Positions 3,631 to 29,001 of a stretch of 35,967 bases of DNA are shown here, one piece after another. Position numbers and translations under genes: made by a program. Positions within the stretch are counted from its first letter, which is position 1. Each line of letters opens with the position of its first letter. The DNA is from a virus, in IMG/VR virus record IMGVR_UViG_3300049483_000057, positions 1 to 35,967 of that record, one strand, 5' to 3'. Below the pieces are notes generated by a model. That model ran no database searches, had not been told where the DNA came from, and worked only from the letters and a program-made list of their open reading frames with translations.

Positions 3631-3839
3631 TGACCAATACGCCCAAGACGATGCGCGTGATTTCGACGGACGCGGCCAGCCAAGGCCCGTTCGTCGTCAT
3701 CAATGCGGCCGACTTCGATCCGGAGATCCACGATCCATACGACCAGACGGGCGTCGGCCCGGATGCCGACAGCGGATCTCCGGCAGAGGCTCCGCGTCGT
3801 CGTGGGCGCCCACGCAAGCAACCCAACACGGAGGCCTAA
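3630..3839 (+). CDS. Small structural-operon protein with AT-hook-like tail
   Basis: A 69-residue protein whose ATG overlaps the coat stop (ATGA) and whose stop directly abuts the next ATG, so it is translationally coupled in the head-tail operon. The N-terminal half (MRVISTDAASQGPFVVINAADFDPEIHDPYD, shown here only as a region) is a small acidic domain seen in some phage head operons. The C-terminus has RRRGRPRK, which contains the RGRP core of AT-hook motifs and could touch DNA. No function is known to me; head decoration or head-tail joining is possible from position alone. Confidence 0.7.
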   Translation: MTNTPKTMRVISTDAASQGPFVVINAADFDPEIHDPYDQTGVGPDADSGSPAEAPRRRGRPRKQPNTEA

Positions 3840-4814
3840 ATGGCGACCGCTGAAAACGCAAAGCTGCAATACGAGGCGGGCCAATCGGCTGTCGCCATGT
3901 CGGCGCTCACCAATTCCGGTGACGCCACCACATTCACCAGCGCGGCCACCCTCTGGTCCCAGCGCTCAGGCTACGCGCCCGTCGTGCGACCGAACGGCCT
4001 GCTCACTGGCGGGGCGGTGACGCCGCATGCCACCAACGATACCGTTGCGGTCGCCGCACTGACGTGCAACCTGGCCGGCGTCGTCGCGAGCGTCAGCGCC
4101 GGGTCGATCGCGATCACCAGGCCGGCAGGCAACGTCGCAAAAGTCTGCTCGATCACCATCAACTCCAGCGCGGCGCTTGCGGTCGTCGCCGGCACCGACG
4201 GCGCATCGACGACCTTCAGCGAAACACGCGCTGCGGCCGGGGGCCCTCCGCTGATCCCGGTTGGCTCGATCGAAATCGCTCAGGTACGCGTCACGACCAG
4301 CGCTGCGGCGGCGTTATCGGCGAGCCAGATCTACCAGGTTGTCGGCTTGCACACCGAACGCGCCGACTTCCCGCTGTATGACACCAACTACAACGGCGGC
4401 ACGGTCCGGTTCTACGATGTCCTGCCGTTGATCCACACGGGATCCGTGCCGAAAGCCGTGTACGCCAGCTACGCATCTCCCATCTTTGCAGATGTCGCCC
4501 TGGCATCTGACTTCGTGCCGCCCGAGACCTCGCACAGCGTCAGCTCGACCCAGGTATATGGCACGACGCTGGGCAGCACGTCCAGCACGCTCGGGCAAGG
4601 ATCGTTCACGGCATACCTGACCAACGGAGTTGCCGACGCACTGGTGAGCCTGAAGAACCAGACCTTGTGGTTCAAGTTCTTTCCGGACCGCTACGCATCG
4701 GCCTACCTGCTCTCCCAGGGCAAGCTCGGGATCGCGCGCACGTTCCCGGCCGGCGACTCCATCCAGGCGGCCTGCACGATCTCCGCCTCAACTGCCGCCT
4801 CCGAGGTGGCTTGA
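3840..4814 (+). CDS. Putative major tail (tube) protein
   Basis: A 324-residue protein rich in Ala, Thr and Ser with predicted beta structure, lying between the coat gene and the chaperone/tape-measure pair, which is the classic place for the tail tube gene of long-tailed phages. The N-terminal half has repeated short beta motifs (GSIAITRPAGNVAKVCSITI) and the central part has DFPLYDTNYNGGTVRFYDVL. It begins at the ATG adjacent to the previous stop and its stop overlaps the next start. The call is mainly positional; I cannot name a family. Confidence 0.65.
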   Translation: MATAENAKLQYEAGQSAVAMSALTNSGDATTFTSAATLWSQRSGYAPVVRPNGLLTGGAVTPHATNDTVAVAALTCNLAGVVASVSAGSIAITRPAGNVAKVCSITINSSAALAVVAGTDGASTTFSETRAAAGGPPLIPVGSIEIAQVRVTTSAAAALSASQIYQVVGLHTERADFPLYDTNYNGGTVRFYDVLPLIHTGSVPKAVYASYASPIFADVALASDFVPPETSHSVSSTQVYGTTLGSTSSTLGQGSFTAYLTNGVADALVSLKNQTLWFKFFPDRYASAYLLSQGKLGIARTFPAGDSIQAACTISASTAASEVA

Positions 4815-5284
4815 TGCCGTTCGACGCTGCAAAGTTCGAAAGGACGAAGCTCGAAGCGCGGCAGGCGCGGGTGCCAGCTCCGGCACTCGCGCCTTTTTTC
4901 AGCGATGGCGAGGATCCAGTTTTTGTGGTTCGTGGGCTCACCACGAACGAGCTACACAAGGCGCTGGACGCCGGGAAGCGGCAATCCAGCATCGAAACCA
5001 TCGTCAAGGCCATTGCGACGACCGGCGACCAAGCCGGCGCCGTGCGCAAGGCCCTCGGGCTGACTGCGGACACCCCGGGCGAGATAGCAAAACGGCTCGA
5101 GATGCTGGTCTACGGAGCCGTGACTCCTGCGATCGACCTGCCGACCGCCGTGAAACTGGCCGAGGCATTCCCGATCGAGTTTCTGACGCTCACGAACGAG
5201 ATCACGGAACTGACCGGCAAGGGGTTCGACCTGGTAAAGCCTCAAGCCGCCTCGCAGCCGACGACAGCCTCAGCGCCTCAATGA
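4814..5284 (+). CDS. Tail assembly chaperone (gpG-like)
   Basis: A 156-residue protein directly upstream of the tape measure, overlapping the tube gene by ATGA. It starts MPFDAAKFERTKLEARQARV, carries a FVVRGLTTNELHKALDA motif and ends in a low-complexity Ala/Thr/Pro tail. Such proteins coat the tape measure during tail assembly. Many phages make a longer version by -1 frameshifting. The -1 frame is open here into the next small gene, but I see no canonical slippery heptamer, and the ATGA overlap suggests simple reinitiation instead. Confidence 0.7.
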   Translation: MPFDAAKFERTKLEARQARVPAPALAPFFSDGEDPVFVVRGLTTNELHKALDAGKRQSSIETIVKAIATTGDQAGAVRKALGLTADTPGEIAKRLEMLVYGAVTPAIDLPTAVKLAEAFPIEFLTLTNEITELTGKGFDLVKPQAASQPTTASAPQ

Positions 5285-5424
5285 GGCTCGTCGACATGCG
5301 CGGCGGCTACCTCTACCAACATCGGCCGGACTTGTTCCCCCAGGGCTACCTGACGGACGAAGAGATCTGCCTTTGGGCCGCCTACTTCGACCGCAAGGCA
5401 AGCGAGAGCGCCCATCGTGGCTGA
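5281..5424 (+). CDS. Short second tail-chaperone-type protein (47 aa)
   Basis: A 47-residue frame beginning MRLVDMRGGYLYQHRPDLFP, with a further LTDEEICLWAAYFDRKA helix. It overlaps the upstream chaperone by ATGA and the tape measure start by 8 bases. It occupies the place of the gpGT extension in lambda-like tails. Short proteins with this composition are often found just before the tape measure in phages of this type. It may be translated alone by coupling or fused to the previous product by frameshifting. Confidence 0.65.
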   Translation: MRLVDMRGGYLYQHRPDLFPQGYLTDEEICLWAAYFDRKASESAHRG

Positions 5425-7375
5425 CGTAGCCAAGACCGTGTCGATCGTCTTCAAGGGCGAGGACCAGACATCCGCGGCTCTGGCCGGCGTCGAGAAGGGC
5501 CTGCAGGGCATCGGTGCGGCAGGCGATGGGGTGCGCAAGGTCGGCGACGAAGTCGACCGCCTCGGCGGCCTCGCAACGCTTGCCGGCGGCGTTCTTGCTG
5601 GTGCCTTCGCGGCTTTCTCGATCTCCGAGCTGTATCAGGCGTTCATCGCCGCCAATGTCGAGGTAGAGCGCTTTACGCGCGCAGCTACCCAGATCACCGG
5701 CGGCAGCGCTGCAGCAGCAAAAGAACTGGAGTACCTGCGCAGCACATCTGATCGGCTCGGCCTGTCCGTGCGAGACACGAGCAACTCATACGTGTCGTTG
5801 CTGGCCGCCACCAAGGGGACGGCCCTCGAAGGCGACCAGGCCCGGGCCATATTCGAGGCTGTATCCGGGGCGATGGCGAACCTCGGCAGGTCGTCGGCTG
5901 ACACTCAAGGTGCGCTGCTCGCGGTTCAGCAGATCGTCTCGAAAGGCACCGTCAGCGCAGAGGAACTGCGCGGCCAGTTAGGGGAGCGTTTGCCGGGCGC
6001 TTTCGGTATTGCCGCGCGGTCGATCGGCGTAACGACAGAAGAGCTCGGGAAACTCCTGGAAGCAGGCAAGCTCACCGCCGTCGATTTCCTGCCTAAGTTC
6101 GCTGCCGAGCTACAGAAAACCTTTGGGAGCGCTGCGCCTGTAGACGGCTACACCGCGGCGATGAACCGGCTGAAGAACCAGTTCGACCTGACGCTGAACA
6201 CGATCGGGAATTCGGGCGCGTTCTCGACTACCGGAATAGAGTTTGCGACCAAGGCTGTGATCTCTCTCGGTGGCGCTTACGAGCTGCTCAACGCTCAGTT
6301 CGTCGCGGTTCGCGATTTGCTCCGAGGGGGGTCGTTCGAGGTATTCAATGCGCAACTGGAACTGGCGTCAAAGCGCGCCAACGATGCCAGCGACAAGATT
6401 GCCGGCCCTGATGGGCTCAACCAATCCCTCGCCGAGACTGAGCGACTCACGCGCCAGGCTACGGCAGCGTCAGCCGCGTACTCCGATCAATCGGCCGCCG
6501 AGACCGAACGCCTGACCCGCCAGGCCAACGCTCAAACTCAAGCGCTCAAAGATGTCGCCGATGCATTCAAGACGCTCGGGGTGAACCCGGACAAGATCAA
6601 GAAGGACATCTCCGAGGTTCTCGCAGCGTTCGATACCCTGACCACTTCGGAGAGCGTCAAAGGCACGCAGGTACTTGCAGGGCTTGAAGCGACGCTAAAA
6701 CGCATCACCGAAAGCTCAGATCTCGCAGCTTTGCGCGATGGCTTGACGACCGCTTTCCAGGCAGGCCGGTTGTCCGCCGACGAGTTCGCCACCGGACTGC
6801 GAAACCTGGACGATAAACAAGCCCAGTTGACAACCGGCGCGCGCACAGCGGCAGACGCCATCCGCAAACAAGCCGACGAAGCGCAGCGCGCAAAGGAAAA
6901 GGCCGAGCAATGGCGGATCGAGATGGAGAAGATCGCATCGAACGAGCGCATCAAGCTCATCGAAGCGCGCGTCACGACCAACGTCGCGCAGGTCGAGGCC
7001 GACACGAAGCGCATTCAGTCTGCCTTTGACTCGATCAATCAAACGATCAATAGCACCGGCGACCTGATCAACAGTGCATTCGGCATCTTGGCAAGCGGCA
7101 AATGGCTGGACTCCCGCGTCGAGGGGAAATTAATGGCGCAGATCGACATCGAGAATGCGAACCGAGAACGCGCCCTGCGGATGCAAGCCGATCTGACCCA
7201 GGCTCAGATCGAAGTTCTCCGCGCGCAAGCCCAAAACCTTCAGCGCGGCGACGCACTCATCAAGGTCGACGGGTCCGGACTCAAGCCCCACCTGGAGGCT
7301 TTCATGTGGGAAATTTTGAAGGCTATTCAGACACGCGTGAATCAGGATGGTTTGAAGCTCCTGCTCGGGGTCTGA
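5417..7375 (+). CDS. Tail tape measure protein
   Basis: A 652-residue protein starting at GTG. It has the tape-measure signature (LRSTSDRLGLSVRDTSNSY, then SGAMANLGRSSADTQGALLA, GTVSAEELRGQLGERLPGAF and LLEAGKLTAVDFLPKFAAEL) within residues about 85-230, a hydrophobic stretch near residues 50-75, and long helical regions to the end. Near residues 335-375 the motif AAETERLTRQA occurs twice, an internal duplication. Tape measures set tail length and are expelled with DNA; 652 residues predict a rather short tail tube. Position after the chaperones and before tail-tip genes agrees. Confidence 0.93.
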   Translation: MADVAKTVSIVFKGEDQTSAALAGVEKGLQGIGAAGDGVRKVGDEVDRLGGLATLAGGVLAGAFAAFSISELYQAFIAANVEVERFTRAATQITGGSAAAAKELEYLRSTSDRLGLSVRDTSNSYVSLLAATKGTALEGDQARAIFEAVSGAMANLGRSSADTQGALLAVQQIVSKGTVSAEELRGQLGERLPGAFGIAARSIGVTTEELGKLLEAGKLTAVDFLPKFAAELQKTFGSAAPVDGYTAAMNRLKNQFDLTLNTIGNSGAFSTTGIEFATKAVISLGGAYELLNAQFVAVRDLLRGGSFEVFNAQLELASKRANDASDKIAGPDGLNQSLAETERLTRQATAASAAYSDQSAAETERLTRQANAQTQALKDVADAFKTLGVNPDKIKKDISEVLAAFDTLTTSESVKGTQVLAGLEATLKRITESSDLAALRDGLTTAFQAGRLSADEFATGLRNLDDKQAQLTTGARTAADAIRKQADEAQRAKEKAEQWRIEMEKIASNERIKLIEARVTTNVAQVEADTKRIQSAFDSINQTINSTGDLINSAFGILASGKWLDSRVEGKLMAQIDIENANRERALRMQADLTQAQIEVLRAQAQNLQRGDALIKVDGSGLKPHLEAFMWEILKAIQTRVNQDGLKLLLGV

Positions 7376-7379
7376 TGAT

Positions 7380-7733
7380 ATGTTGACGGTACTGTCCGCC
7401 ATCGAGTTCGACCCGACTGGTGTCGTCCAGATCGACGCGCTGCCGGCCAGCAAGCTCGGCGATACCGCGCGGCGCGTCAACCGCATCGCGACGCTCGACG
7501 GCGGCGCCGTGGTCAACGACTTCGGATTTTCCGACTCCGATCGCACGATCGACGTGGCGTGGAGCACGGGCGACGCCGCGTTCGAGGCCGCCATCGTGCG
7601 GCTTGTCGAAACCTACCGGGATCTGCAGATCGCTACGCGGCACGGCGTCTATCGGGCGTCGCCCGAAACCTATCGGGTAGAGCCGCCGCGCTCCACATTG
7701 CGGCTTCTCGTCACCGCCAAACTATCAGCCTAA
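7380..7733 (+). CDS. Putative tail-tip/minor tail protein
   Basis: A 117-residue protein (MLTVLSAIEFDPTGVVQIDA) starting four bases after the tape measure stop. It has a beta-rich pattern with RTIDVAWSTGDAAFEAAIVR and SPETYRVEPPRSTLRLLVTA, as in proteins that measure or cap a tail tip. It sits in the place where gpM- or distal-tail-type genes lie in lambda-like operons. Family not recognised; role inferred from position. Confidence 0.6.
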   Translation: MLTVLSAIEFDPTGVVQIDALPASKLGDTARRVNRIATLDGGAVVNDFGFSDSDRTIDVAWSTGDAAFEAAIVRLVETYRDLQIATRHGVYRASPETYRVEPPRSTLRLLVTAKLSA

Positions 7734-7742
7734 GGGTCCGCG

Positions 7743-8135
7743 ATGACCGTCCCTACTACTGCTACCTACTCCGGCGCGGCAAAAGTCGCCGCGCATACAT
7801 CGTTTCGCGACCTGGTCGACTCCGGGGCTGGCGCCGGCTTCGTCCGCATCCGTGACGCTGCCGATGTGCTTCTCGCCACCATCCCGCTTTCGGACCCGTG
7901 CGGATCGGTCAACGGCACGACGGGCCAGCTCACACTGTCTATCGCGGGCCCCGATACTTCAGCCGACGCGAACGGCACCGCGGCCTACGGCGAAATCTGC
8001 AACAGCTCGGGCACCGTCTATCTGAGCTTGCCGACGCAGGCTGGTTCGACTGCTGTTTCCGGAAAGCTGGTCCTCAATACGTTGTCCATCGTTTCCGGAA
8101 CGACCGTGACTCTGCTGAGCGCAACGATCGGATGA
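7743..8135 (+). CDS. Small beta-rich tail protein
   Basis: A 130-residue protein composed almost entirely of short beta strands (SFRDLVDSGAGAGFVRIRDA, later SGKLVLNTLSIVSGTTVTLL). It begins nine bases after the previous gene and is followed by a GTG start four bases beyond its stop. The composition (Ala, Gly, Ser, Thr rich; no Lys-rich helices) is that of a tail decoration or tip protein. I do not recognise the family. Confidence 0.6.
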   Translation: MTVPTTATYSGAAKVAAHTSFRDLVDSGAGAGFVRIRDAADVLLATIPLSDPCGSVNGTTGQLTLSIAGPDTSADANGTAAYGEICNSSGTVYLSLPTQAGSTAVSGKLVLNTLSIVSGTTVTLLSATIG

Positions 8136-8139
8136 TGCC

Positions 8140-8814
8140 GTGGCCGATGGCTACATCGCAGACATCTCGGGCCCACTGGGTGCGCCTGCCCTGCTGGGCC
8201 GCGATGCGCCAGCGGGCTGGCTCGCGGATTCTGGCGTGCTGCAGCAGCCCCTCCTCGTCGCGTTTGACGACATCCGCGAGCTGATCGTCCCGTCGTCGAC
8301 GATATTCGTGATGGACCTCGTCACGCCGACCGGCGTCGTTCGCGTCCCGATCAGTTCGTGGCAGGCTACTTTGCAGACCGACGCCGCCTGCTACGTCCAG
8401 TGTGTGATACCCGCCGCGGACACCTACGCGACGGCTATCGCTGTCGCTACTGACTTCGTCATCAGCCAGGTTCTGACCCTTTCCAACGGTACGACGATCG
8501 ACTATGAGATGGCGCGCGCCCCGGCGCAAACGCTGATCCTTGACCGTGGAGCGTTCAACTACACCGCTACGCTGTCTGGCTACGCGGCCGCGCTGACTTC
8601 CTCTGAGGCGCCTCCAGTGCTCACCGATCGAACGCTGACCGGTGTGCGTTCGGTGAGCACCTACGCCGACGGAATGCGGGTGCGCTGCTCGATCGACTGG
8701 TCGCTGCGTCCAGGCCAGCGCGCCTACCTGGACTTGACCGAAATACTGGTCGACTACATAAATTTCTATGCGCCCGGCAACGACTGCTACATGGACGTTG
8801 GGGAGCGCGCCTGA
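8140..8814 (+). CDS. Putative tail-tip protein, unknown family
   Basis: A 224-residue protein starting at GTG (MADGYIADISGPLGAPALLG). It has a central TNGTTIDYEMA-like beta region and a C-terminal RPGQRAYLDLTEILVDYINF segment, resembling baseplate or hub proteins with a jelly-roll or hub fold, but I cannot assign a family. Its stop overlaps the start of the next, larger tail protein (TGATGG), indicating coupled synthesis and probably a shared sub-complex at the tail tip. Confidence 0.6.
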   Translation: MADGYIADISGPLGAPALLGRDAPAGWLADSGVLQQPLLVAFDDIRELIVPSSTIFVMDLVTPTGVVRVPISSWQATLQTDAACYVQCVIPAADTYATAIAVATDFVISQVLTLSNGTTIDYEMARAPAQTLILDRGAFNYTATLSGYAAALTSSEAPPVLTDRTLTGVRSVSTYADGMRVRCSIDWSLRPGQRAYLDLTEILVDYINFYAPGNDCYMDVGERA

Positions 8815-10424
8815 TGGGCTATGCGCGCATTGTCAGCGGCGGGCCATCCGGGCGCTACGTGATCGAGTGCGACTACGGATCGGAGGCAAGGACAAGCGTT
8901 CTCGCCGCGCTTGCCGCGCTGCTGGTGCAGATGGACCTGAAGATCTCCGAGGCCACTGTCAAGCTTGCTGATGCGACCGCCGCAGCGAACGAAAAGCGCG
9001 CTGCCGTGCAAGTGGCAACCGATCAGGTCGTCGCCAGCTTTAGTTTTCTTGGGGTCCCGAGTGCGATTGCCGTCAACGCCTTCAACCTCGCCCGCCGACA
9101 GTTGATGTTCTACGACCAACCAGAAACGGACGCCCGCATCCGCCTTGAACAGTTGCAGCTGCAGCGTGCCGATGTCGTGAAACAGATCGCGGAATGGCAA
9201 GCCTTCGACCCACTGCGGATGAAGTCGGCATGGTGTACAGACTACACCGAGGATGCCTCCGGGTACGTGGCAACGATCGATGTCAACGGCGAATCGGACC
9301 TGACGCTGGTGCAGGCAGGCGGAAGGTCGTGGAAGCCGGCGGACGGCGTCATGACGGCGCGGGAAATCATGTCGCCGTCGCAGCTGTTCTTCAACGCGGC
9401 GATCGAGCCCGGCTGGCAGAAGTTTCTCCCTACCTACCGCTGGGGAATCATCACCGCGCTGAACCACGACGCCAACACCGCCGGCGTCTCGCTGTTCGAC
9501 GCCAAGTCGAGCGACTCCCAAAGACTGGGTATCAACCAGTCGGGCGAACTGAGCGCGGTTCCAGTTAGATATATGACCTGCAACTCGCGCGCGTTCCAAG
9601 TCGGCGATCGGGTCGTGGTTGAGTTTCTCGGGCAGATCTGGGCTCTGCCGACCGTTGTCGGGTTTCTCGACAACCCCAAGCCGTGCTCAACAACGGTAGG
9701 CCTGTTCTACACCCGCGGCTACCTGCCACTGGACTTCGGCAATCCGTCGCTGATCAGCAGCCAGGACAAAAACATCGGCGACACCTGGGATGCCGTCACC
9801 GCCCCAACGCCGACCGGCATTCAGAAATTCATGGGCTGGAACGACGCAGTGGCGACGCTGTCGCGATCTGACGGAACGGTCACCGCCAGCATTACGAAGT
9901 TCGCGAACTACGCGCTGGCGCCGACGGTGCAGGTCGACATCGAGTGGACCCTGAACCTCACGCCAGTCGGCGCCCCGTACCTGTTGGACGATGAGATTTT
10001 CTACGGCGTCGTGCAAAACGCTACGATCGACATCACGATCACACGAACGATCATCACCACCCCCAGCAGCGGAGCCGTGTTCACGTCACCGGCCTACGTC
10101 AGCCGTACCTACCCGATCTGGTCCGGTTGGTACATTGACGGAGCTACCACGGCGCAGATATTCCTCGGCCTGACCGACCCCGGCGCGGATCCCTCCGCGT
10201 ACCCGTTTGGCCCCCTGGAATTCAACCCCGCAGATATCGTGGCCCCGGCGGGGCAGGCGTTCACCTTCTCCATGCCGAGTTCGTCGAACGCCTACACCGT
10301 GACCGGCGATGCATCAGGCACGTTCCCGTTCCCGTCCGGCACGCATCTGCCCGCTACGGCAACAGGGATCGGCAGCGCCTCCATTACCTACCCGCCGACG
10401 ACGTGGTCGGCAACCTACCCGTAA
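8814..10424 (+). CDS. Large tail-tip/central fibre-like protein with coiled coil and OB-like segment
   Basis: A 536-residue protein, the largest of the tip genes. Residues about 30-130 form a helical coiled coil (KISEATVKLADATAAANEKR, later RIRLEQLQLQRADVVKQIAE). Residues about 205-290 look like an OB-type beta barrel with VGDRVVVEFLGQIWALPTVV, common in tail hub and baseplate proteins. The C-terminal half is beta-rich with many aromatic residues (SRTYPIWSGWYIDGATTAQI), as in receptor-facing domains. It is probably the hub or central fibre of this operon. No enzymatic motif is seen. Confidence 0.6.
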   Translation: MGYARIVSGGPSGRYVIECDYGSEARTSVLAALAALLVQMDLKISEATVKLADATAAANEKRAAVQVATDQVVASFSFLGVPSAIAVNAFNLARRQLMFYDQPETDARIRLEQLQLQRADVVKQIAEWQAFDPLRMKSAWCTDYTEDASGYVATIDVNGESDLTLVQAGGRSWKPADGVMTAREIMSPSQLFFNAAIEPGWQKFLPTYRWGIITALNHDANTAGVSLFDAKSSDSQRLGINQSGELSAVPVRYMTCNSRAFQVGDRVVVEFLGQIWALPTVVGFLDNPKPCSTTVGLFYTRGYLPLDFGNPSLISSQDKNIGDTWDAVTAPTPTGIQKFMGWNDAVATLSRSDGTVTASITKFANYALAPTVQVDIEWTLNLTPVGAPYLLDDEIFYGVVQNATIDITITRTIITTPSSGAVFTSPAYVSRTYPIWSGWYIDGATTAQIFLGLTDPGADPSAYPFGPLEFNPADIVAPAGQAFTFSMPSSSNAYTVTGDASGTFPFPSGTHLPATATGIGSASITYPPTTWSATYP

Positions 10425-10427
10425 GCC

Positions 10428-10871
10428 ATGCCGATCCAAGTCCTCGTTTCGGGAGTTGATGTCGCGGTGCGAGACATCAGGCTGCTCCCCAAGCGCGTCG
10501 AGCAGATCGTGCTGGCCCGCCTGGCCGTCGTCGCATTCGACGCAGCGCTTGCCGGCATAGACCGGCACACAAAAATCGGAGCGTTACGACGGTCGCTTTA
10601 CAACCGATTGATCCCAGGAGGCCGCGAAGTCGGGAACGATCCGAGCATCGCCGCGCATGCCCGTTTTGTGCATTGGGGAACCCGACCGCACGTCATCGTC
10701 CCGAAGAACAAGCGCGCGCTTCGCTGGGTTTCCGGCAACGGATACGTGTTCGCCGGCAGGGTGAATCACCCTGGCTACCGCGGCGACCCGTACCTGATCA
10801 ACGCAGCCGACGCTGCCGTCCGCCAGTATTCGGCAATCGTCGATGCCGCATTCAAGGAGTCCACCGCATGA
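10428..10871 (+). CDS. HK97 gp10-like neck/minor tail protein
   Basis: A 147-residue protein with the pattern of HK97-gp10-like proteins: a helical N-terminus, then HARFVHWGTRPHVIVPKNKR, ALRWVSGNGYVFAGRVNHPG and RGDPYLINAADAAVRQYS. These proteins help join or complete the tail near the neck. It is placed after the tip genes instead of before the tube gene, another sign of local gene-order change. It overlaps the next gene by ATGA. Confidence 0.75.
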   Translation: MPIQVLVSGVDVAVRDIRLLPKRVEQIVLARLAVVAFDAALAGIDRHTKIGALRRSLYNRLIPGGREVGNDPSIAAHARFVHWGTRPHVIVPKNKRALRWVSGNGYVFAGRVNHPGYRGDPYLINAADAAVRQYSAIVDAAFKESTA

Positions 10872-17710: not shown

Positions 17711-17959
17711 CTAGGCGGCCTTCTCTTCGGCCGCCGTATCGCGCAGCACGCCCCATGCCACATCGGGTCGAAGGTCTTCGCACCGAACCGCTCCGTGCGT
17801 TACACGCTCAATCGCTGGGCAGTGCTCAGCCGGAACTCGGTTCAGTCGCCACTGATGGACGACCGCATGGCTCTTCAAGCCAAGAGCGGAGGCCAACTTC
17901 GTGATACCACCGGCTGACTCGATGGCCCGCTCGATGGCGGTGGCGTTGGTGTTGTCCAT
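17711..17959 (-). CDS. cro: Cro-like repressor (YdaS family)
   Basis: An 82-residue YdaS/Cro-type DNA-binding protein: AIERAIESAGGITKLASALG followed by LKSHAVVHQWRLNRVPAEHC, a typical helix-turn-helix that pairs with a divergent CI-type repressor. I place the start at the second ATG (17959) because a consensus -10 element, TATAAT at 17972-17967, overlaps the first ATG (17968), so the first cannot lie within the transcript. It heads the minus-strand replication-packaging operon. Confidence 0.85.
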   Translation of the reverse strand: MDNTNATAIERAIESAGGITKLASALGLKSHAVVHQWRLNRVPAEHCPAIERVTHGAVRCEDLRPDVAWGVLRDTAAEEKAA

Positions 17960-17966
17960 ACCCTGC

Positions 17967-17996
17967 ATTATAGATAGTTTATCTATCCGAGCAAGT
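17967..17996 (-). promoter_or_regulatory. Predicted cro promoter, near-leaderless
   Basis: On the minus strand, TTGCTC (around -35) lies 16 bases before a perfect TATAAT at 17972-17967. A transcript would begin 6-8 bases downstream, at about 17961-17959, which is the start codon of cro itself, predicting a leaderless or nearly leaderless mRNA. The -35 match is only partial. Confidence 0.55.
17970..17986. promoter_or_regulatory. Repressor operator palindrome
   Basis: A perfect 7+7 inverted repeat, ATAGATA-GTT-TATCTAT, lies between the divergent cro and repressor genes and overlaps the predicted cro promoter, so occupancy would block cro. A further TATCTA half-site occurs at 18002-18007, nearer the repressor start. 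This is the expected arrangement of CI/Cro operators; the binding proteins are inferred. Confidence 0.75.
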
Positions 17997-18029
17997 GGGT
18001 CTATCTACCCTGACGCATACGCTCGCGAC

Positions 18030-18653
18030 GTGAGCATCCACCGACTGATCCGGGACCGGCGCCTGGCGCTTCGCATGTCTGAGGAAGCGCTGGCATCGGC
18101 GGTCGGCGTCTCACGGTCGGCCGTGCAGCAATGGGAGCGTGAGGGCGAACGCGGCACGACGCCGCGCCCGTCGAAGCGCGCCAAGATCGCCGAGGTGCTT
18201 GGCGTAAGCGTTGAGCAGCTGGCCCGCGCCGAATCGTCTCCGCTGTCCGCAGGAAAGTGCCCACCGGCCTACGATGTCTCCCGCGATTCGGGGGTGCCTC
18301 ACGACATGAGACACCTCCCGTTCGACACTCCTCCCACATTTACATGGGAGTCGGTCGTGTCATCCAGGGAACTACCGCCGCAGTTCTGTCTCGCGGTGCC
18401 AGACGATGCACTCGCGCCGCGCACACCGCGCGGGACAGTGCTGATCTTCGAGACCGCGGCCAAGCCGCAGCCGGGAGACGGCGTGCCGGTCGAGGATCGC
18501 TACGGCGGCCGGCACGTCCGGCGATATTTGCCTGGAGTCGGCGGCAACTGGACGGCCGGCGTCCACAATGACGCGTACCCCGAGCTGCAGGCAGAGCGCG
18601 ACGGGTTGGAGATCCTGGCAGCGGCCAGCGGCCGCATGAGTGGAGCGGTATGA
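18030..18653 (+). CDS. CI-like repressor with inactive-looking S24 domain
   Basis: A 207-residue repressor starting at GTG (SIHRLIRDRRLALRMSEEAL). The helix-turn-helix lies at residues 16-38 and a LexA/CI-type C-terminal domain at about 115-200. In the motif where S24 peptidases have the catalytic serine, this protein reads PDDALAP with Ala127, and the Lys position (RHVRRYL) holds Arg. It therefore keeps the dimerisation fold but probably cannot cut itself. It is divergent to cro across the operator and its stop overlaps the next gene, so that gene is likely expressed in the lysogen. Confidence 0.85.
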   Translation: MSIHRLIRDRRLALRMSEEALASAVGVSRSAVQQWEREGERGTTPRPSKRAKIAEVLGVSVEQLARAESSPLSAGKCPPAYDVSRDSGVPHDMRHLPFDTPPTFTWESVVSSRELPPQFCLAVPDDALAPRTPRGTVLIFETAAKPQPGDGVPVEDRYGGRHVRRYLPGVGGNWTAGVHNDAYPELQAERDGLEILAAASGRMSGAV

Positions 18654-23981: not shown

Positions 23982-24081
23982 GCCTAACGTTCGAGCTAAC
24001 CGGGGGACCACGGCGTGACCAAGCATGCAAACGAGACAAGGCCGGATGCCGTGGGCACTCCGGTTGAGCGATGGGTTGGGC
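23982..24081 (+). repeat. attC site A (integron recombination site)
   Basis: Inverse core R'' GCCTAAC (23982-23988), L''-type GAGCTAACCGG, L'-type CCGGTTGAGCG and core R' GTTGGGC (24075-24081) give the four-box attC layout; the arms can fold into a stem with the usual unpaired base. The site is about 100 bases, with a long loop carrying GGGGGA and a GTG at 24015 that opens the frame of the next gene. The crossover would be between G and TT of the R' box. Confidence 0.85.
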
Positions 24082-24602
24082 GTCTCGTGCCGGAGCGCGC
24101 GAACCGTGGCGCGGCGACCTTGCGCGTGGTGCCATGCAGTTTGCGGGATGCGCAGCGGTTCGTGGCAAGCCTGCACAGGCACCACAAAGACCAGCCGCTG
24201 CCGGGCCACAAACTGAGCCTGGCCGTGGAGGCAAAGACGCGACTGCTGGATGGGCCTGAGTGGGTGCGCGTTGGTGTGGCAATGATCGGCAACCCGAGCG
24301 CGCCGGCCTTGCAGAAGGACCGGCTGTTGGTGGAGATACGCCGTGTGTGCACCGATGGCACTCCGAACGCCTGCAGCATGCTCTACGGCGCCGCGCGCCG
24401 AGCACTGCGGGCAATGGGGTACGAAACGATCATCACGTACACGCTGCCCGAGGAAGGCGGCGCCAGTTTGCGGGCAGCGGGTTTCATTCTCGACAAGGCC
24501 GACGCGGGCGGATGTAGCGCGGATTGGCACAATCGGAGAGGGCGCCGCGCCTTGCCGGTTGGTGACGACCTGATCGGCGGCAAGTGGAGGTGGCTGGGAT
24601 GA
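24015..24602 (+). CDS. XF1762-family (GNAT-like) phage protein, cassette 1
   Basis: A 195-residue protein. From about residue 35 on it follows the XF1762 family: LRDAQRFVASLHRHHKDQPL, VGVAMIGNPSAPALQKDRLL, VEIRRVCTDGTPNACSMLYG, AARRALRAMGYETIITYTLP and EEGGASLRAAGF. This resembles the acyl-transferase (GNAT) fold, as in Mom-type DNA-modification proteins, but substrate and partner are unknown. The first 22 residues are encoded by attC A; GTG 24087, just after the attC core, is an alternative start. Overlaps the next gene by ATGA. Confidence 0.8.
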   Translation: MTKHANETRPDAVGTPVERWVGRLVPERANRGAATLRVVPCSLRDAQRFVASLHRHHKDQPLPGHKLSLAVEAKTRLLDGPEWVRVGVAMIGNPSAPALQKDRLLVEIRRVCTDGTPNACSMLYGAARRALRAMGYETIITYTLPEEGGASLRAAGFILDKADAGGCSADWHNRRGRRALPVGDDLIGGKWRWLG

Positions 24603-24790
24603 CTCGTCAGTTAGTGACGCCGGAGCGCGACCAAGAAGGACCGCGCGGCACCTACGGCTGCGCCTGCGTGAGCCGCGATGCCAGGACATGCTTGATCGTT
24701 CGATACGGCTACCGCGAGGACATGACTGGCCGAGACGAGCGCTGCGAATGCCTCTGCCACCAATGGAGCGACGACGATGACGATTACTGA
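24599..24790 (+). CDS. Cys-rich small protein, copy 1
   Basis: A 63-residue protein (MTRQLVTPERDQEGPRGTYG) with the Cys pattern C-A-C, a middle Cys and CECLCHQW, followed by an acidic tail. A second copy (26397-26624) shares GPRGTYGCAC and CECLCH, and the two genes share a long near-identical DNA block around GGCACCTACGGCTGCGC. The spacing of cysteines suggests a metal-binding fold, perhaps zinc. Start is set by ATGA overlap with the XF1762 gene. A degenerate attC core, CAGTTAGTG, lies within its first codons. Confidence 0.7.
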   Translation: MTRQLVTPERDQEGPRGTYGCACVSRDARTCLIVRYGYREDMTGRDERCECLCHQWSDDDDDY

Positions 24791-25034
24791 GAAGCAGCGC
24801 GACATCATGCGCCACACATTGGGCGTTGGGCGCGGGAGCACTGGCTGGCGAAACCACTTCGTCACCGGCCCCGGTAGCGACGACTACAACGACTGCGAAG
24901 CGCTGGTGGCCGCAGGCCTGATGAGCCGCCGCAATGGCGGCCCGCTGTCCGGCGGCGACCCGATCTACCGCGTGACGGATGCCGGCCAGGATGCGCTGGT
25001 GGGCCGCCCGAAGCAATCGGGGCAGACGGCATGA
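24777..25034 (+). CDS. Small winged-helix-like protein
   Basis: An 85-residue protein: MTITEKQRDIMRHTLGVGRG, GWRNHFVTGPGSDDYNDCEA, LVAAGLMSRRNGGPLSGGDP and IYRVTDAGQDALVGRP. The order helix, helix, then GLM-x9-Y-x-V-T-D-A-G is that of a winged-helix domain ending in a wing, common in small phage proteins. It overlaps the Cys-rich gene by 14 bases and the next gene by ATGA. Function unknown. Confidence 0.7.
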   Translation: MTITEKQRDIMRHTLGVGRGSTGWRNHFVTGPGSDDYNDCEALVAAGLMSRRNGGPLSGGDPIYRVTDAGQDALVGRPKQSGQTA

Positions 25035-25306
25035 CTGAAGACCGCGAGAAGCTGGGCTTGGCCCTGTGCCCGTTCTGCGGCGGGGTAGCACGCTTCGGCA
25101 AGTGCGTGCCGGGCGAGCAGGAAAACGAGAACGACGGTGCGGAGTACATCGAGTGCTGCGACTGCGGCGCCAGCACCTGCCTTGTGTTTCCGCTGATGGA
25201 CAGCGCGAAGCAGGTGCTGCGGGATATGTGGAACCGCAGAACCTTGCCCGACAGCAAGACGCCCAACGTTGGAGCTAAGCCGAAAACAACGGCCCAGGAA
25301 ACATGA
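25031..25306 (+). CDS. Lar-like restriction alleviation protein
   Basis: A 91-residue protein with the Lar family pattern: LALCPFCGGVARFGK, then AEYIECCDCGASTCLVFPLM and MWNRRTLPD. The two CxxC pairs likely hold a zinc. Lar of the Rac prophage lowers restriction by type I systems, so an anti-restriction role is expected from the family. The last fifteen residues, including TPNVGAKPKTTAQET, are encoded by attC B. It is the fourth gene of the first cassette. Confidence 0.82.
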   Translation: MTEDREKLGLALCPFCGGVARFGKCVPGEQENENDGAEYIECCDCGASTCLVFPLMDSAKQVLRDMWNRRTLPDSKTPNVGAKPKTTAQET

Positions 25307-25362
25307 CCCAAGCGCGCAAACGTAGCCGGCCGTTGGTTTTCGGCTTGAGCGACCAGTTAGCC
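25261..25362 (+). repeat. attC site B
   Basis: R'' GCCCAAC (25261-25267) and R' GTTAGCC (25356-25362; one mismatch to GTTRRRY) flank long complementary arms: GCTAAGCCGAAAACAACGGC on the left matches GGCCGTTGGTTTTCGGCTTG on the right with single unpaired bases. The loop contains AGGA and ATG 25303, the start of the next gene. About 102 bases. Confidence 0.88.
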
Positions 25363-25752
25363 GTGGTGGAAGGGGAACGCGACGGCGGTGGCAGGCCAAA
25401 GCTGAAGCGCTGCTGCGGGTGCGGCAGCGTGTTTCAGGTGGCGCCGCGCGGCCCGGTGCCGAACTACTGCCACCGCTACTGCGACCCAGCACAGCGCGAG
25501 GCCCGCAAGGCGCATGAAGCGAGGTACGTGGCACAGCAGAACGGCCGGGCTGCGCGCAACAGGGCCAGCCAAGCGCACCACCAGCGCGTGAAGGATGAGC
25601 TACCCGACTACATCGTGGCGAACCTCTTGAAGATGAGGCTTGCCGAAGTGCCGCAGCAACTGTTGGAGTTGAAGCGGCAGCAACTCACCGCGCACCGAAT
25701 GGCGCGACAACTGAAGGAAGCAACTCGTGAAAGCAGCAAAGACGCTCGTTGA
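25303..25752 (+). CDS. Phage-type zinc-finger protein, cassette 2
   Basis: A 149-residue basic protein. After an attC-encoded leader (MTQARKRSRPLVFGL) it has RCCGCGSVFQ and VPNYCHRYCDPAQREARKAH, two Cys pairs suited to zinc, and a C-terminal helix LPDYIVANLLKMRLAEVPQQ. Proteins of this kind (Cys-rich finger followed by an LPD-helix and a basic coil) are frequent in phage early regions and may bind nucleic acid. GTG 25363 right after the attC core is an alternative start. Its tail overlaps the next gene. Confidence 0.72.
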   Translation: MTQARKRSRPLVFGLSDQLAVVEGERDGGGRPKLKRCCGCGSVFQVAPRGPVPNYCHRYCDPAQREARKAHEARYVAQQNGRAARNRASQAHHQRVKDELPDYIVANLLKMRLAEVPQQLLELKRQQLTAHRMARQLKEATRESSKDAR

Positions 25753-26017
25753 ATCCGTGGCCGACATGGAGCAGGTGACCACGCAAGGCGACCTGCGCCG
25801 GCTGGTGGCGAACAGCCTGCTGGCACTGGCGCGGAAGGAGATCAGCGCCACAGACGTGGAGGCGATGGCAAAGGGACTGGACTCGATCAGCAACAGCCTG
25901 AACGCGGAAATCAAGGTGGCGAAGACCGCCATCGAACTGCGCGAGAAGGGCGCCCAGCTCGGCCAAGTGGTGCAGCTCGGCCAACTGGTGATCGGCAATG
26001 CCCCGCAGGGCGGCTAA
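25727..26017 (+). CDS. Small helical protein paired with the zinc-finger gene
   Basis: A 96-residue helical protein (MKAAKTLVESVADMEQVTTQ), starting at GTG with GAAGGAAG six bases upstream. Its central part, ALARKEISATDVEAMAKGLD, SISNSLNAEIKVAKTAIELR, has a coiled-coil pattern. It usually follows the zinc-finger-type protein in phages. Here the stop codon lies inside attC C (R'' box), another case of cassette gene and site overlapping. Function unknown. Confidence 0.7.
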   Translation: MKAAKTLVESVADMEQVTTQGDLRRLVANSLLALARKEISATDVEAMAKGLDSISNSLNAEIKVAKTAIELREKGAQLGQVVQLGQLVIGNAPQGG

Positions 26018-26067
26018 CGTGCTATTAACCGGCGCCGTCAGGCGTCCGGTTGAATAGCGTGTTATGC
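26012..26067 (+). repeat. attC site C (short, strongly folded)
   Basis: A 56-base site with R'' GGCTAAC (26012-26018) and R' GTTATGC (26061-26067), both imperfect against the consensus, and arms that pair almost completely: GTGCTATTAACCGGCGCC against GGCGTCCGGTTGAATAGCG, loop GTCA, with unpaired T and G. These extra-helical bases on one strand are the hallmark used by integron integrases to choose the bottom strand. Confidence 0.9.
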
Positions 26068-26096
26068 GTGTGGTGGAAAACCGGGAAGGTGTATGA

Positions 26097-26345
26097 ATGA
26101 GTTGGCTCTTTTCGCAGGCGCTGGTGGCGGAATACTCGCGGCCTGGCTACACGGTGCTGGACACGCACATGGGCGCTGGAACGACCGGCGTTGCATGCGC
26201 CCGCGCTGGGCGGAAGTTCATAGGCTGCGAGGTTGACCGCGCGGCTTTCGATTTGGCGTGCCAGCGGATAGAAGCCGCTTACGCGCAAGGCTCCCTGCTG
26301 GATTTGGCACAGCCCGTGCCGGAGCAGCAGGGCATGGGGTTTTGA
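26097..26345 (+). CDS. DNA methyltransferase fragment (SAM-binding part), cassette 3
   Basis: An 82-residue protein (MSWLFSQALVAEYSRPGYTV) with the C-terminal SAM-binding motif of DNA adenine/cytosine N4 methylases, LDTHMGAGTTGVACARAGRK, FIGCEVDRAAFDLACQRIEA. The catalytic DPPY-type motif and the target-recognition domain are absent, so it cannot be a complete enzyme alone. It could be a remnant, half of a split protein, or a small SAM-binding protein that blocks a host enzyme. The start lies 30 bases after attC C. Confidence 0.75.
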   Translation: MSWLFSQALVAEYSRPGYTVLDTHMGAGTTGVACARAGRKFIGCEVDRAAFDLACQRIEAAYAQGSLLDLAQPVPEQQGMGF

Positions 26346-26346
26346 G

Positions 26347-26448
26347 CCCTAACGCTAGGTTGAGCGGACCGCAACGGCCCGCACAGGAGGTAGAGCATGG
26401 GACAAAGTAGCCGGGCCGTTGTGGGTCCGCTCGAACCGTCAGTTGGGC
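26347..26448 (+). repeat. attC site D
   Basis: R'' CCCTAAC (26347-26353) and R' GTTGGGC (26442-26448) border arms with extensive pairing: GGTTGAGCGGACCGCAACGG against CCGTTGTGGGTCCGCTCGAA. The loop carries the strongest ribosome site of the region, AGGAGG six bases before ATG 26397. About 102 bases. Confidence 0.9.
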
Positions 26449-26624
26449 GGCCGCTGGACGAAGGCACGAACACCAGCGGGCCGCGTGGCACCTACGGCTG
26501 CGCATGCGCGCACCACGACGGCAGCATGTGCGCTTGGATTCGGTACGGCGGAGACGGCCCGGAAGACCCTTGCGAATGCTTGTGCCACGGATGGCAGGAG
26601 GACAAAGATGACTACTTGGGCTGA
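26397..26624 (+). CDS. Cys-rich small protein, copy 2, cassette 4
   Basis: A 75-residue paralogue of the protein at 24599. Shared parts are GPRGTYGCAC and CECLCHGW with acidic ends. Its first 17 residues (MGQSSRAVVGPLEPSVG) are encoded by attC D, and no other start codon lies between the attC core and the shared region, so translation must begin in the attC loop. The DNA copies are nearly identical over about 28 bases around GGCACCTACGGCTGCGC. Function unknown; metal binding likely. Confidence 0.75.
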   Translation: MGQSSRAVVGPLEPSVGRPLDEGTNTSGPRGTYGCACAHHDGSMCAWIRYGGDGPEDPCECLCHGWQEDKDDYLG

Positions 26625-26796
26625 TGAGTACGTGACGCTTCTGGAGGACTGCGAGAAGCGCAGCGAGCGCCTTAGCGATTGGGAACTCGGATTCGTGGAC
26701 TCGCTTCAGCGCCAGCTTGCCGAAGGACGCCGCCCGAGTGCGAAGCAGATCGAGACGCTGGACACCATCTGGGAGCGAGCCACCAAGCTCGGCTGA
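26608..26796 (+). CDS. Small acidic helical protein
   Basis: A 62-residue helical protein (MTTWADEYVTLLEDCEKRSE, then SDWELGFVDSLQRQLAEGRR) with an AGGAGGA ribosome site that lies within the end of the Cys-rich gene; the two genes overlap by 17 bases. The pattern RLSDWELGFVDSL resembles small phage proteins of unknown role. Fifth small ORF family of the array. Confidence 0.65.
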   Translation: MTTWADEYVTLLEDCEKRSERLSDWELGFVDSLQRQLAEGRRPSAKQIETLDTIWERATKLG

Positions 26797-26800
26797 CGCC

Positions 26801-27079
26801 ATGCACGTTGAACTGCAGATGGACTTCGCGCTGCTGCAGCGCGCCATTAAGGCCGAGACCGAAGCCGCGCTGCTGCGGGCTGCTCTGGATGCCGAGACGG
26901 CGCGCTGGGAAGAAGCGCTGCGCCTTACGTGGCAGATGGTGGACCCGTTCAATCCGGCCGGCGAGCCTGGCAGCTACTGGCGCGGCCAGGACGCTGGAAT
27001 CGTGGCCGCGCTGACAACACTGCGGGCGAACCTGAAGACGCCCAACGTGGAGTTAAGCGGCCGTACTCGGTCCGCTTGA
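26801..27079 (+). CDS. Small helical protein ending in an attC-encoded tail
   Basis: A 92-residue helical protein (MHVELQMDFALLQRAIKAET, EAALLRAALDAETARWEEAL) beginning four bases after the previous stop. The last 14 residues or so (KTPNVELSGRTRSA) are encoded by attC E. Probably a short coiled coil; function unknown. Confidence 0.65.
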   Translation: MHVELQMDFALLQRAIKAETEAALLRAALDAETARWEEALRLTWQMVDPFNPAGEPGSYWRGQDAGIVAALTTLRANLKTPNVELSGRTRSA

Positions 27080-27093
27080 ACGCAGGGTTAGAG
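27040..27093 (+). repeat. attC site E (canonical short site)
   Basis: R'' GCCCAAC (27040-27046), L'' GAGTTAAGCGG, L' CCGCTTGAACG and R' GTTAGAG (27087-27093) form a 54-base site close to the textbook attC of Xanthomonas-type integrons; the arms pair with an unpaired G in the right arm. The stop codon of the preceding gene (27077-27079) lies in L'. Confidence 0.9.
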
Positions 27094-27116
27094 CGCATTG
27101 GCGCCGGAGCGTGGAA

Positions 27117-27857
27117 ATGGCGAAGTACAACGACCCTGAAGAGCTGCGCGCCCTGGCAGACCGGATTGACCACGAGCAACTGTGGCGCTGGGCTGGCATG
27201 GACCACGACAAGATGACGCCCGAGCAGAAGGACCGCCACATGGCCGGCGTGCACCTGCGCCGCTACGCCAGCGACCGCGGCAACATGCTGGAGCGGCTGA
27301 AAGAAGGCGCCGGTTACATGCGCGGCATGCGCCTGGAGCGCGCGAACCGAGGCACCGACCAGCGTGGCTGCGGCGACAACGAATGGCACCGCGCCTGCAA
27401 TGCCGAGAGCGACCGGCTTGGCGCCGACACGCCCAAGGGCCAGTCTCGGCCGTGGGCCAAGCTGATGCACACCGCGCGCAAGATCAGCGACGAAGTGCCA
27501 CGCATGGTTCTGCTGTTTCAGTACGAGCGCGAGCGCGGCATGCCTGACAGCTACAAGATGTGCGCGCACGACCCGCGCCCCGCAACGCCGCTGCCTGACA
27601 ACCACCTGCGGTGCGCGCTGGGCCATGAGTGCCGGAAGTGCCCGCACCTGGCCGCGATTGACCGCAGCGCCATGACGCCCGAGGCGAAGGACGAGGCCAA
27701 AGCCTGGACGTGCGCGACGCACTTCCTGCTGGAGTCGGACGCGGACGTGTTCATGGAGCAAATCCTGTTCGACAAGAGCGACGACGCCTTCAATGCGCGC
27801 TTGGTCGAGAGCTTCGCTGCCGAATATGACGACGGCAGCTTGGACGACGGGAATTGA
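27117..27857 (+). CDS. Unknown cassette protein, 246 aa, cassette 5
   Basis: The largest cassette gene product (MAKYNDPEELRALADRIDHE). It is mostly helical, with MTPEQKDRHMAGVHLRRYAS, ERLKEGAGYMRGMRLERANR and a Cys/His cluster CALGHECRKCPHL near residue 170, followed by CATHFLLES. The start at 27117 has GGAG eight bases upstream. No family recognised; the Cys cluster could bind a metal. A standard start after the attC core shows that not every cassette uses an attC-borne start. Confidence 0.7.
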   Translation: MAKYNDPEELRALADRIDHEQLWRWAGMDHDKMTPEQKDRHMAGVHLRRYASDRGNMLERLKEGAGYMRGMRLERANRGTDQRGCGDNEWHRACNAESDRLGADTPKGQSRPWAKLMHTARKISDEVPRMVLLFQYERERGMPDSYKMCAHDPRPATPLPDNHLRCALGHECRKCPHLAAIDRSAMTPEAKDEAKAWTCATHFLLESDADVFMEQILFDKSDDAFNARLVESFAAEYDDGSLDDGN

Positions 27858-27861
27858 TGCG

Positions 27862-27952
27862 CTCTAACGCAGAAGTAACCGGCTTGCGCCGCGAGGACGA
27901 ACGATGAACAACACTGCTGCCGGCGCAAGTCCGGTTGACTGCCGGGTTAGGC
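27862..27952 (+). repeat. attC site F
   Basis: R'' CTCTAAC (27862-27868; first base off consensus) and R' GTTAGGC (27946-27952; full match). Arms AACCGGCTTGCGCCG and CGGCGCAAGTCCGGTT pair with one unpaired T. The loop holds GAGGA six bases before ATG 27904, which opens the next gene. Confidence 0.9.
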
Positions 27953-28287
27953 GTCTTCTGCCGCGCCTGCGCAATGGGCCTGCGCCGCTTTGCGACCCGG
28001 ACTTGAACGACGACGCGGCCGATGTGATTGAGAGCTTGTGCTCAGAGCGAGAGGTGCAAGATGCCGCAATAGCGAACCTGCGCATTGACTTGCGCGAGTG
28101 CGCAGATGTGCGCTATAGAGATATTGAGCGCATGCGCCGCGCCTTGCATGAGATTGCCGAAGAATGGGCCGGGGCTGAGTGCGGAGAGCCCGTGCATGCG
28201 CAGGAAGCCTATGCGATTGGGCTGGCGAAGCGGATGTATGCGCTGGCCGCGGAAGGTTTGACGCCTAACGCCAGGTTAAGCGGGTGA
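27904..28287 (+). CDS. Unknown helical protein, cassette 6
   Basis: A 127-residue protein. The first 16 residues (MNNTAAGASPVDCRVR) come from attC F, and no ATG follows in frame before the likely core (DLNDDAADVIESLCSEREVQ, AAIANLRIDLRECADVRYRD and EYAIGLAKRMYAL-type end). The core resembles short phage proteins with an N-terminal helix pair. The last residues, LTPNARLSG, are encoded by attC G. So both ends of this protein derive from recombination sites. Confidence 0.68.
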   Translation: MNNTAAGASPVDCRVRRLLPRLRNGPAPLCDPDLNDDAADVIESLCSEREVQDAAIANLRIDLRECADVRYRDIERMRRALHEIAEEWAGAECGEPVHAQEAYAIGLAKRMYALAAEGLTPNARLSG

Positions 28288-28363
28288 CCACGGCGCCGCA
28301 ACATTACCCGGAGCGCGACACGGCCACCCGCCGTGGGCGCTCCGCTTGAACCGACAGTTATGC
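28263..28363 (+). repeat. attC site G
   Basis: R'' GCCTAAC (28263-28269) and R' GTTATGC (28357-28363), with L'' AGGTTAAGCGG and L' CCGCTTGAACC and a further CCACGGCG/CGCCGTGG pairing inside. About 101 bases. A GTG in the loop opens a 21-residue frame that ends within the right arm, unlike sites A, B, D and F. Confidence 0.9.
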
Positions 28364-28387
28364 AGCACTGCTGCGAAGGAGAGCACG

Positions 28388-28633
28388 ATGGGTGAATACA
28401 TGGCCGCACAGATGGACCGCCAGATTGAATGCGCGATCAGTGAGAACGAGCAACTGCGCCGCGACCTTGAGATTGCGCTCGACATGCTGGCGCAATGGTG
28501 CGTGGCTGTTGACGTGAACGGCACCGGCTGGGATGACTGGGACGAGCACTACAAGGATGCGATGTACCGGCCCGGCCCGCTGCGCGAGCAACTGGACGCC
28601 GCCATTGCGGAAGCCCGCAAGCAGCGGATGTGA
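28388..28633 (+). CDS. Small phage-type helical protein, cassette 7
   Basis: An 81-residue protein (MGEYMAAQMDRQIECAISEN) with a heptad-like helix (EQLRRDLEIALDMLAQWCVA) and an acidic middle (GTGWDDWDEHYKDAMYRPGP). AAGGAG precedes the ATG, which lies 24 bases past the attC G core. Weak family feeling for small early phage proteins; function unknown. Confidence 0.68.
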   Translation: MGEYMAAQMDRQIECAISENEQLRRDLEIALDMLAQWCVAVDVNGTGWDDWDEHYKDAMYRPGPLREQLDAAIAEARKQRM

Positions 28634-28641
28634 TTGGTGCT

Positions 28642-28658
28642 GCATAACGGGTTGTAGC
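28642..28658 (+). repeat. Probable truncated attC at right edge of the array
   Basis: GCATAAC (R''-type, the complement of the GTTATGC boxes of sites C and G) is followed after three bases by GTTGTAG, without the arms of a complete site. It marks the end of cassette-like DNA and may be a deletion remnant of the last attC. Confidence 0.5.
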
Positions 28659-28680
28659 CATCATCCGAAGACTTTGCGCT

Positions 28681-29001
28681 ATGCGATTTCGCACCCGCTC
28701 CGAAGCCGCGCGTTACAGCGCAACGACCCGCTGGCGTGCTGCCGAGGCGCGCGCGCAGGCCGAACGAGACGCCGGCATCCCCGACCTGCCGATTGCGCAG
28801 GATGCGAGAGATCCGATCACACTGGATCTGCGGTCAGCCGGGTATCGTCACCTGCGCATCGAGCCGCGTCTAGGCTACGTGGCGTGGCGTGCTGTCGACG
28901 TTGACACGGGCGAGGTGCTGCACTGCGCGGCCATCAAAGAGCTGCTGCGCTGGATCGCGGGTGAGGTGCCACGCCAGCTCGGCGCGAGGCATTGGCAGTG
29001 A
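28681..29001 (+). CDS. Hypothetical protein after the cassette array
   Basis: A 106-residue protein (MRFRTRSEAARYSATTRWRA) with an N-terminal basic helix and an alpha/beta region (HLRIEPRLGYVAWRAVDVDT, then CAAIKELLRWIAGEVPRQLG). It is the last plus-strand gene and ends nine bases from the convergent minus-strand gene. There is no attC after it, so it is probably original phage DNA. No family recognised. Confidence 0.6.
   Translation: MRFRTRSEAARYSATTRWRAAEARAQAERDAGIPDLPIAQDARDPITLDLRSAGYRHLRIEPRLGYVAWRAVDVDTGEVLHCAAIKELLRWIAGEVPRQLGARHWQ

Follow-up and report, generated by a model that had tools for sequence, protein, structure and literature searches.

The virus record IMGVR_UViG_3300049483_000057 of IMG/VR, analysed here over its whole length of 35,967 bases (the window), is the genome of a tailed phage, with PHROG matches to portal, major head, head morphogenesis, TerL, tape measure, RecE-like exonuclease, RecT, exonuclease and endolysin proteins. 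Seven attC-like sites (A1 to A7) and 13 short genes, the genes all on the plus strand, occupy the interval from the exonuclease region to a small plus-strand gene at 28681 (Table 1). The original prediction had placed seven four-box attC sites with foldable arms here and had seen in them an integron-type array inside a phage genome; our analysis upholds both the sites and their setting amid portal, head, TerL, tape measure, RecE/RecT and endolysin genes, and adds an attI-like acceptor, a half site and a link to phage-encoded IntI. Judged from its sequence, the region is an integron-type cassette array within a tailed-phage genome. We propose, with a probability of about 0.86, that it is a reversed-type phage integron array, in which the genes oppose the polarity of the attC sites and which would work by the mechanism outlined below.

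The attC sites of the array

For the search, a covariance model (R1) was derived from 21 bacterial attC sites, all from outside the window; its structure holds the four boxes (R'', L'', L' and R') and the extra L-box base. R1 recovers all seven sites between 23982 and 28363, all on the minus strand, at 31-50 bits and with E values from 1.4e-5 to 5.2e-10; its only match on the plus strand has E = 0.51, and it finds nothing in 18 phage loci with a RecT module (281 kb). Rfam at its gathering threshold gave no match for the window sites, which is why a dedicated covariance model was needed. Folding confirmed that the arms of the sites form stems. With seven sites that have all four boxes and a folding strand, where two or more suffice, the array qualifies as a cluster of attC sites lacking an integron integrase (CALIN).

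The boundary boxes provide a test that is independent of R1. A cassette inserted by the integron integrase IntI starts with a box that complements the R'' box in its own attC. Adjacent boundary boxes are identical in 7/7 letters in six of the seven window units (permutation p = 0.0008), and no window site (0/7) is perfect within itself; across the viral arrays, 127 of 183 pairs match, as against at most 71 in shuffles. The sole exception in the window is the unit with the truncated methyltransferase cassette. This mismatch is explained by the truncation, because only the last 79 residues of the methyltransferase are left when it is compared with its full-length counterpart in a cassette of the intI-bearing phage contig L135 (residues 171-249 of a 249-aa protein, 95% match), and the unit appears to have lost its own attC and start. 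Taken together, these features indicate that the window sites are genuine attC sites.

Reversed polarity and the attI-like end

The top strand of a class 1 integron reads TTCAAGCC...GGCTTAAC with the gene on the same strand, as checked on aadA1 of R100, our control. Both R1 and the position of the extra L-box base show the minus strand to be the canonical top strand of the window sites, and every gene is on the plus strand. The original prediction that all genes are read in the attC direction, which is typical of bacteria, is thus wrong: all window genes oppose it. A plus-strand assignment of the sites by R-box consensus alone was rejected on the L-box asymmetry, the aadA1 control and the covariance model.

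We then compared viral and bacterial arrays by counting the genes between sites, after a single attC pattern had been used to search both IMG/VR and GTDB genomes. Across 48 viral arrays, 277 of 279 genes oppose the attC polarity and two follow it; in bacterial arrays, 249 genes follow it and 48 of 297 run against it. The contrast has p = 4e-110 on genes that are not independent within one array and on loci that are related, and it holds locus by locus. The attC scanner and the gene calls are our own heuristics, trained or tuned on the loci examined, and are supported by the covariance model and the aadA1 control.

This polarity bears directly on a passive origin of the array, in which the phage would have picked up part of a bacterial chromosomal integron through recombination, ordinary or illegitimate, and would now carry it as a CALIN. 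Capture was proposed for phage CALINs by Qi et al. 2023 (PMC9892861) and agrees with the lack of intI in the window, but captured cassettes would retain bacterial polarity, and nearly all genes of the viral arrays are reversed. Moreover, the array ends at a conserved phage site preceding a phage gene in 13 phages, the cassettes are common to phage contigs and carry Mom, Lar and methyltransferases, and the one readable, scanner-called site of the published phage TJE1 (L276; 1016-1075, 49197-49217) has canonical, bacterial polarity. We consider capture highly improbable. Beside the called site of TJE1, an annotated 'terminator' consists of two inverted R-type boxes.

In the gene direction the array ends at a half site (28642-28648), the eighth site of the series. 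The roughly 42 bp from this box to the following start codon are conserved in 13 aligned phages, the cassette side of the box shows no conservation, and on the minus strand the element resembles the attI1 core; it looks like an attI site and is our candidate for one. The window array has the features of the reversed class that we propose, namely genes that oppose attC, an end at an attI-like site and then a co-directional gene. We refer to this last gene, which encodes 106 aa, as the platform gene. Its homologues stand at the ends of other arrays, and a search by the platform gene instead of attC led to 12 viral loci, of which 11 have attC sites upstream, nearly all on the minus strand, and the twelfth has only 0.5 kb of upstream sequence. 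The protein had no PHROG match above noise and no PDB match at E <= 0.001 in a fold search, and the gene had no match in isolated phages and none among 399 Burkholderiales and 10 other bacterial genomes. A scan for the exact attI pattern returned only four stretches, one of them preceding a broken platform gene. The attI-like site precedes the platform gene in the window and intI in other phages.

Phage integrases and the movement of cassettes

With four phage IntIs as queries we found at least 130 viral stretches with intI. Among 80 intI loci examined, 32 have recognisable attC sites upstream, the arrays being reversed in 31 and canonical in none, and genes 5' of intI are co-directional with it in 284 of 292 cases in phages versus 19 of 78 in bacterial integrons. 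In L135 the array is followed by a box, two direct repeats and intI, all in the same direction, and many phage intI genes are preceded by the common box and then TTNAATTCGAC. Of the 113 IntIs placed in a tree, 34 from phages group in a single clade (support 100/98) near a group with IntI1, and the partial L135 integrase is closest to this clade. The remaining viral IntIs are placed elsewhere in the tree, so that the phage IntIs overall are not one clade. Tail, antirepressor and ParB genes are present on the intI-bearing contigs, in many cases with an ordinary phage integrase as well. At loci such as L300, L303 and L312, the gene of an ordinary tyrosine phage integrase often lies near intI, which suggests an array at the prophage edge. 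One viral contig (L122 / L278) holds an integron of bacterial layout, with intI divergent and attC along the genes, and is possibly a chromosomal fragment. In the window itself, a CI-like repressor recognised by eye from its helix-turn-helix N-terminus (17901-18653) suggests a temperate phage; the record has no integrase.

The cassettes of the window recur piecemeal in other phages. A1 and the Mom-like gene are homologous to L134 7869-8481, the homology beginning at the left box; the DNA at 26608-27061 is 86% identical to L120 5865-6318, and A7 is 91% identical to L037 12515-12624. With L135 the window shares the methyltransferase segment (97%) and A4 (98%), where the methyltransferase match stops at A4's left box and the match to A4 lies at another place in L135. 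Across the viral arrays, 66 ends of high-scoring segment pairs fall at the canonical R' box and nine at R''. These R' breakpoints and the split L135 matches indicate that the movable unit is an attC and the gene to its right, and cassettes are shared piecemeal between phages with breakpoints at left boxes. The proposal that cassettes entered the phage and may be exchanged there is therefore sustained as regards recurrence and breakpoints at recombination boxes, and is to be amended in that the cassettes, with genes against the attC polarity, are not simply captured bacterial ones. In the comparison of phages that the original prediction had suggested, cassettes are shared with the contigs named above, and the 18 RecE/RecT-related phage loci have no attC and do not share the array locus, so that they offer no empty site. 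Manatee Spring and Variovorax phages with short matches to the window have no attC in the stretches read.

The hairpins have a second feature on the gene strand. Long phage attC sites have, in 71 of 186 cases (38%), the Shine-Dalgarno (SD) sequence and start codon of the following gene within the loop of the hairpin, compared with 8/186 after shuffling, 1/185 on the opposite strand and 16/167 on the same strand of bacterial sites; in the window this holds for A4 and A6. At window positions 25303, 26397 and 27904, the right arm of the attC encodes the N-termini of several cassette proteins, with recurrent leader motifs such as SPVDCRVRR. Loop starts on the gene strand, together with the strength of the hairpins and the RecE and RecT encoded by the phage, would be accounted for if the hairpins were mRNA elements of a phage operon that present or process ribosome-binding sites, their attC likeness being a by-product and the genes being shuffled by homologous recombination. 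RNA leaders, however, would not be expected to show exact 7-nt boundary matches between neighbouring sites, the extra L-box base, the R and L boxes and such E values with a bacterial model, nor an attI-like end, nor genes for phage IntI next to these arrays, and we find this explanation scarcely credible.

We propose instead that the reversed array is handled by an integron integrase, which would bind the folded plus strand of each attC, cut at the canonical R' box, that is, the left box in the gene direction, and join cassettes at the attI-like site, which lies where the operon has its 3' end. Each newly added cassette would come to lie downstream of the others, aligned with the early operon of the phage, and would be transcribed by read-through. 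The movable unit would be an attC followed by its gene, and as many attC loops may supply the ribosome-binding site and start codon, movement of the unit would never split a gene. Some relatives of the reversed class encode their own IntI directly after attI; the window phage, having no intI, would rely on an integrase supplied by its host or by a co-resident phage. The array may serve as a stock of accessory genes open to exchange, in particular those for counter-restriction.

Downstream of the attI-like site in the window there is no IntI of the phage clade, such as L135 and others have; the platform gene stands in its place. The array could consequently be of the reversed IntI type and yet be immobile in this phage, a relic after loss of an adjacent intI. 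That the platform gene follows the attI-like site where relatives have intI, and that one cassette is truncated, fit such a history. On the other hand, 12-13 phages whose arrays differ have kept the platform gene and its attI-like site, and identity to L135 is 97-98% over A4 and part of the methyltransferase cassette, which points to recent exchange. A relic is unlikely in our judgement, and we retain the reading of a reversed array open to exchange. Several observations weigh against it. PF00589 and PF13495 (tyrosine recombinase, intI) have no match in the window, so that one can only guess where the integrase comes from, and the array could have become static. We saw neither an excised circle nor an empty site nor any variant of the array of this same phage. 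Only 32 of the 80 intI loci had attC sites visible to the scanner, and a phrog_2 terminase occurs in 21 of 49 array contigs versus 1 of 35 intI-bearing contigs. The viral arrays were mostly found by one attC pattern, with a gene caller trained on those loci, and the gene counts are non-independent, the loci being related.

Cassette cargo and relation to known integrons

The features of the array are collected in Table 1. Among 148 phage cassette proteins, DNA methyltransferases are the top recognisable functions, and most proteins have no recognisable function; the recognisable cargo is, by sequence matches, mostly counter-restriction. Two paralogous small proteins with a GPRGTYGCAC motif (24599-24790 and 26421-26624) occur in two window cassettes 1.8 kb apart. 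In L135, about five different DNA methyltransferases lie in separate cassettes of one array (3657-10754), beside intI.

Table 1 Predicted features of the cassette array and its end in the window
Feature	Position	Strand	Basis and remarks
attC A1	23982-24081	-	100 nt; R1 49.9 bits, E 5.2e-10
Mom-like DNA modification protein	24015-24602	+	phrog_1384, E 2.4e-29; start possibly downstream of A1
Small Cys-containing protein	24599-24790	+	coding score; DNA repeats D2/D3; paralogue of 26421-26624
Cassette gene, no assigned function	24777-25034	+	phrog_13561, E 4e-23
Lar-like restriction alleviation protein	25031-25306	+	PF14354, E 1.2e-5 (just under cut-off); phrog_599, E 3e-7
attC A2	25261-25362	-	102 nt; R1 43.2 bits, E 1.9e-8; possible start ATG 25303 in loop
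Cassette gene, very weak HNH-like match	25303-25752	+	phrog_8660, E 0.023; possible start in A2 loop, gene calling favours 25345
Cassette gene, no assigned function	25727-26017	+	coding score 57; stop codon within A3 left box
attC A3	26012-26067	-	56 nt; R1 44.7 bits, E 8.7e-9
C-terminal remnant, N6/N4 DNA methyltransferase	26097-26345	+	PF01555, E 2.8e-11
attC A4	26347-26448 (R1 match 26347-26447)	-	102 nt; 31.2 bits, E 1.4e-5; AGGAGG and ATG 26397 in loop
Cassette gene	26397-26624	+	starts in A4 loop with AGGAGG; paralogue of 24599-24790
Cassette gene, no assigned function	26608-26796	+	gene calling
Cassette gene, no assigned function	26801-27079	+	gene calling; ends inside A5
attC A5	27040-27093 (R1 match 27040-27094)	-	54 nt; 37.2 bits, E 5.2e-7
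Cassette gene, 246 aa, no assigned function	27117-27857	+	coding score 124
attC A6	27862-27952 (R1 match 27861-27952)	-	91 nt; 45.6 bits, E 5.3e-9; GAGG and ATG 27904 in loop
Cassette gene	27904-28287	+	starts in A6 loop, ends in A7
attC A7	28263-28363	-	101 nt; R1 46 bits, E 4.2e-9
Last cassette gene	28388-28633	+	coding score 46; adjoins attI-like box
attI-like acceptor (candidate)	28642-28683	-	R box GCATAAC (28642-28648) and conserved leader to ATG 28681; box matches the A7 outer box
Platform gene	28681-29001	+	106 aa, basic protein, function unassigned; directly after attI-like site

Integron parts in phages are already known. Qi et al. 2023 (PMC9892861) described 17 phage CALINs, and five of six attC sites tested were active with IntI1; the suggestion that phage-borne cassettes are rarely described accordingly needs qualifying. 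Like the window array, those CALINs are attC clusters in phage genomes, mostly without intI and with methyltransferase cargo, but they were described as having the typical bacterial structure, and reversed polarity, a phage attI platform, a phage IntI clade and loop start codons were not reported. With bacterial chromosomal and class 1 integrons the phage arrays share the attC architecture, breakpoints at R', matching boundary boxes and an IntI with the specific patch. They differ from them in that bacterial genes follow attC (249:48) and intI diverges from the cassettes, whereas the phage genes oppose attC and, where there is an intI, run in its direction. In Treponema integrons, intI is transcribed toward attI and the cassettes away from it (PMC3607928). 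There, too, intI and the cassette genes lie on one strand, but it is intI that is reversed and not the cassettes; the phage cassettes are read toward attI and intI away from it. The reversed phage class, its attI platform and its IntI lineage were not found in the open-access literature, most subscription journals and preprints being outside the scope of the search.

Our results make it probable that phages own an integron system, comprising an IntI lineage, attI sites and its own pool of reversed cassettes, in which the attC also acts as the ribosome-binding leader of the gene. Through this system they would trade accessory and anti-defence genes, and phages without intI, such as that of the window, would live off it by means of the attI platform alone. 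Bacterial integrons stock antibiotic-resistance genes and anti-phage defence genes. If our proposal is true, phages have the mirror image, a system that stocks counter-defence genes and allows site-specific, modular exchange across lineages; it would account for some of the mosaicism in the accessory regions of phages, and polarity would keep the cassette pools of phages and bacteria apart.

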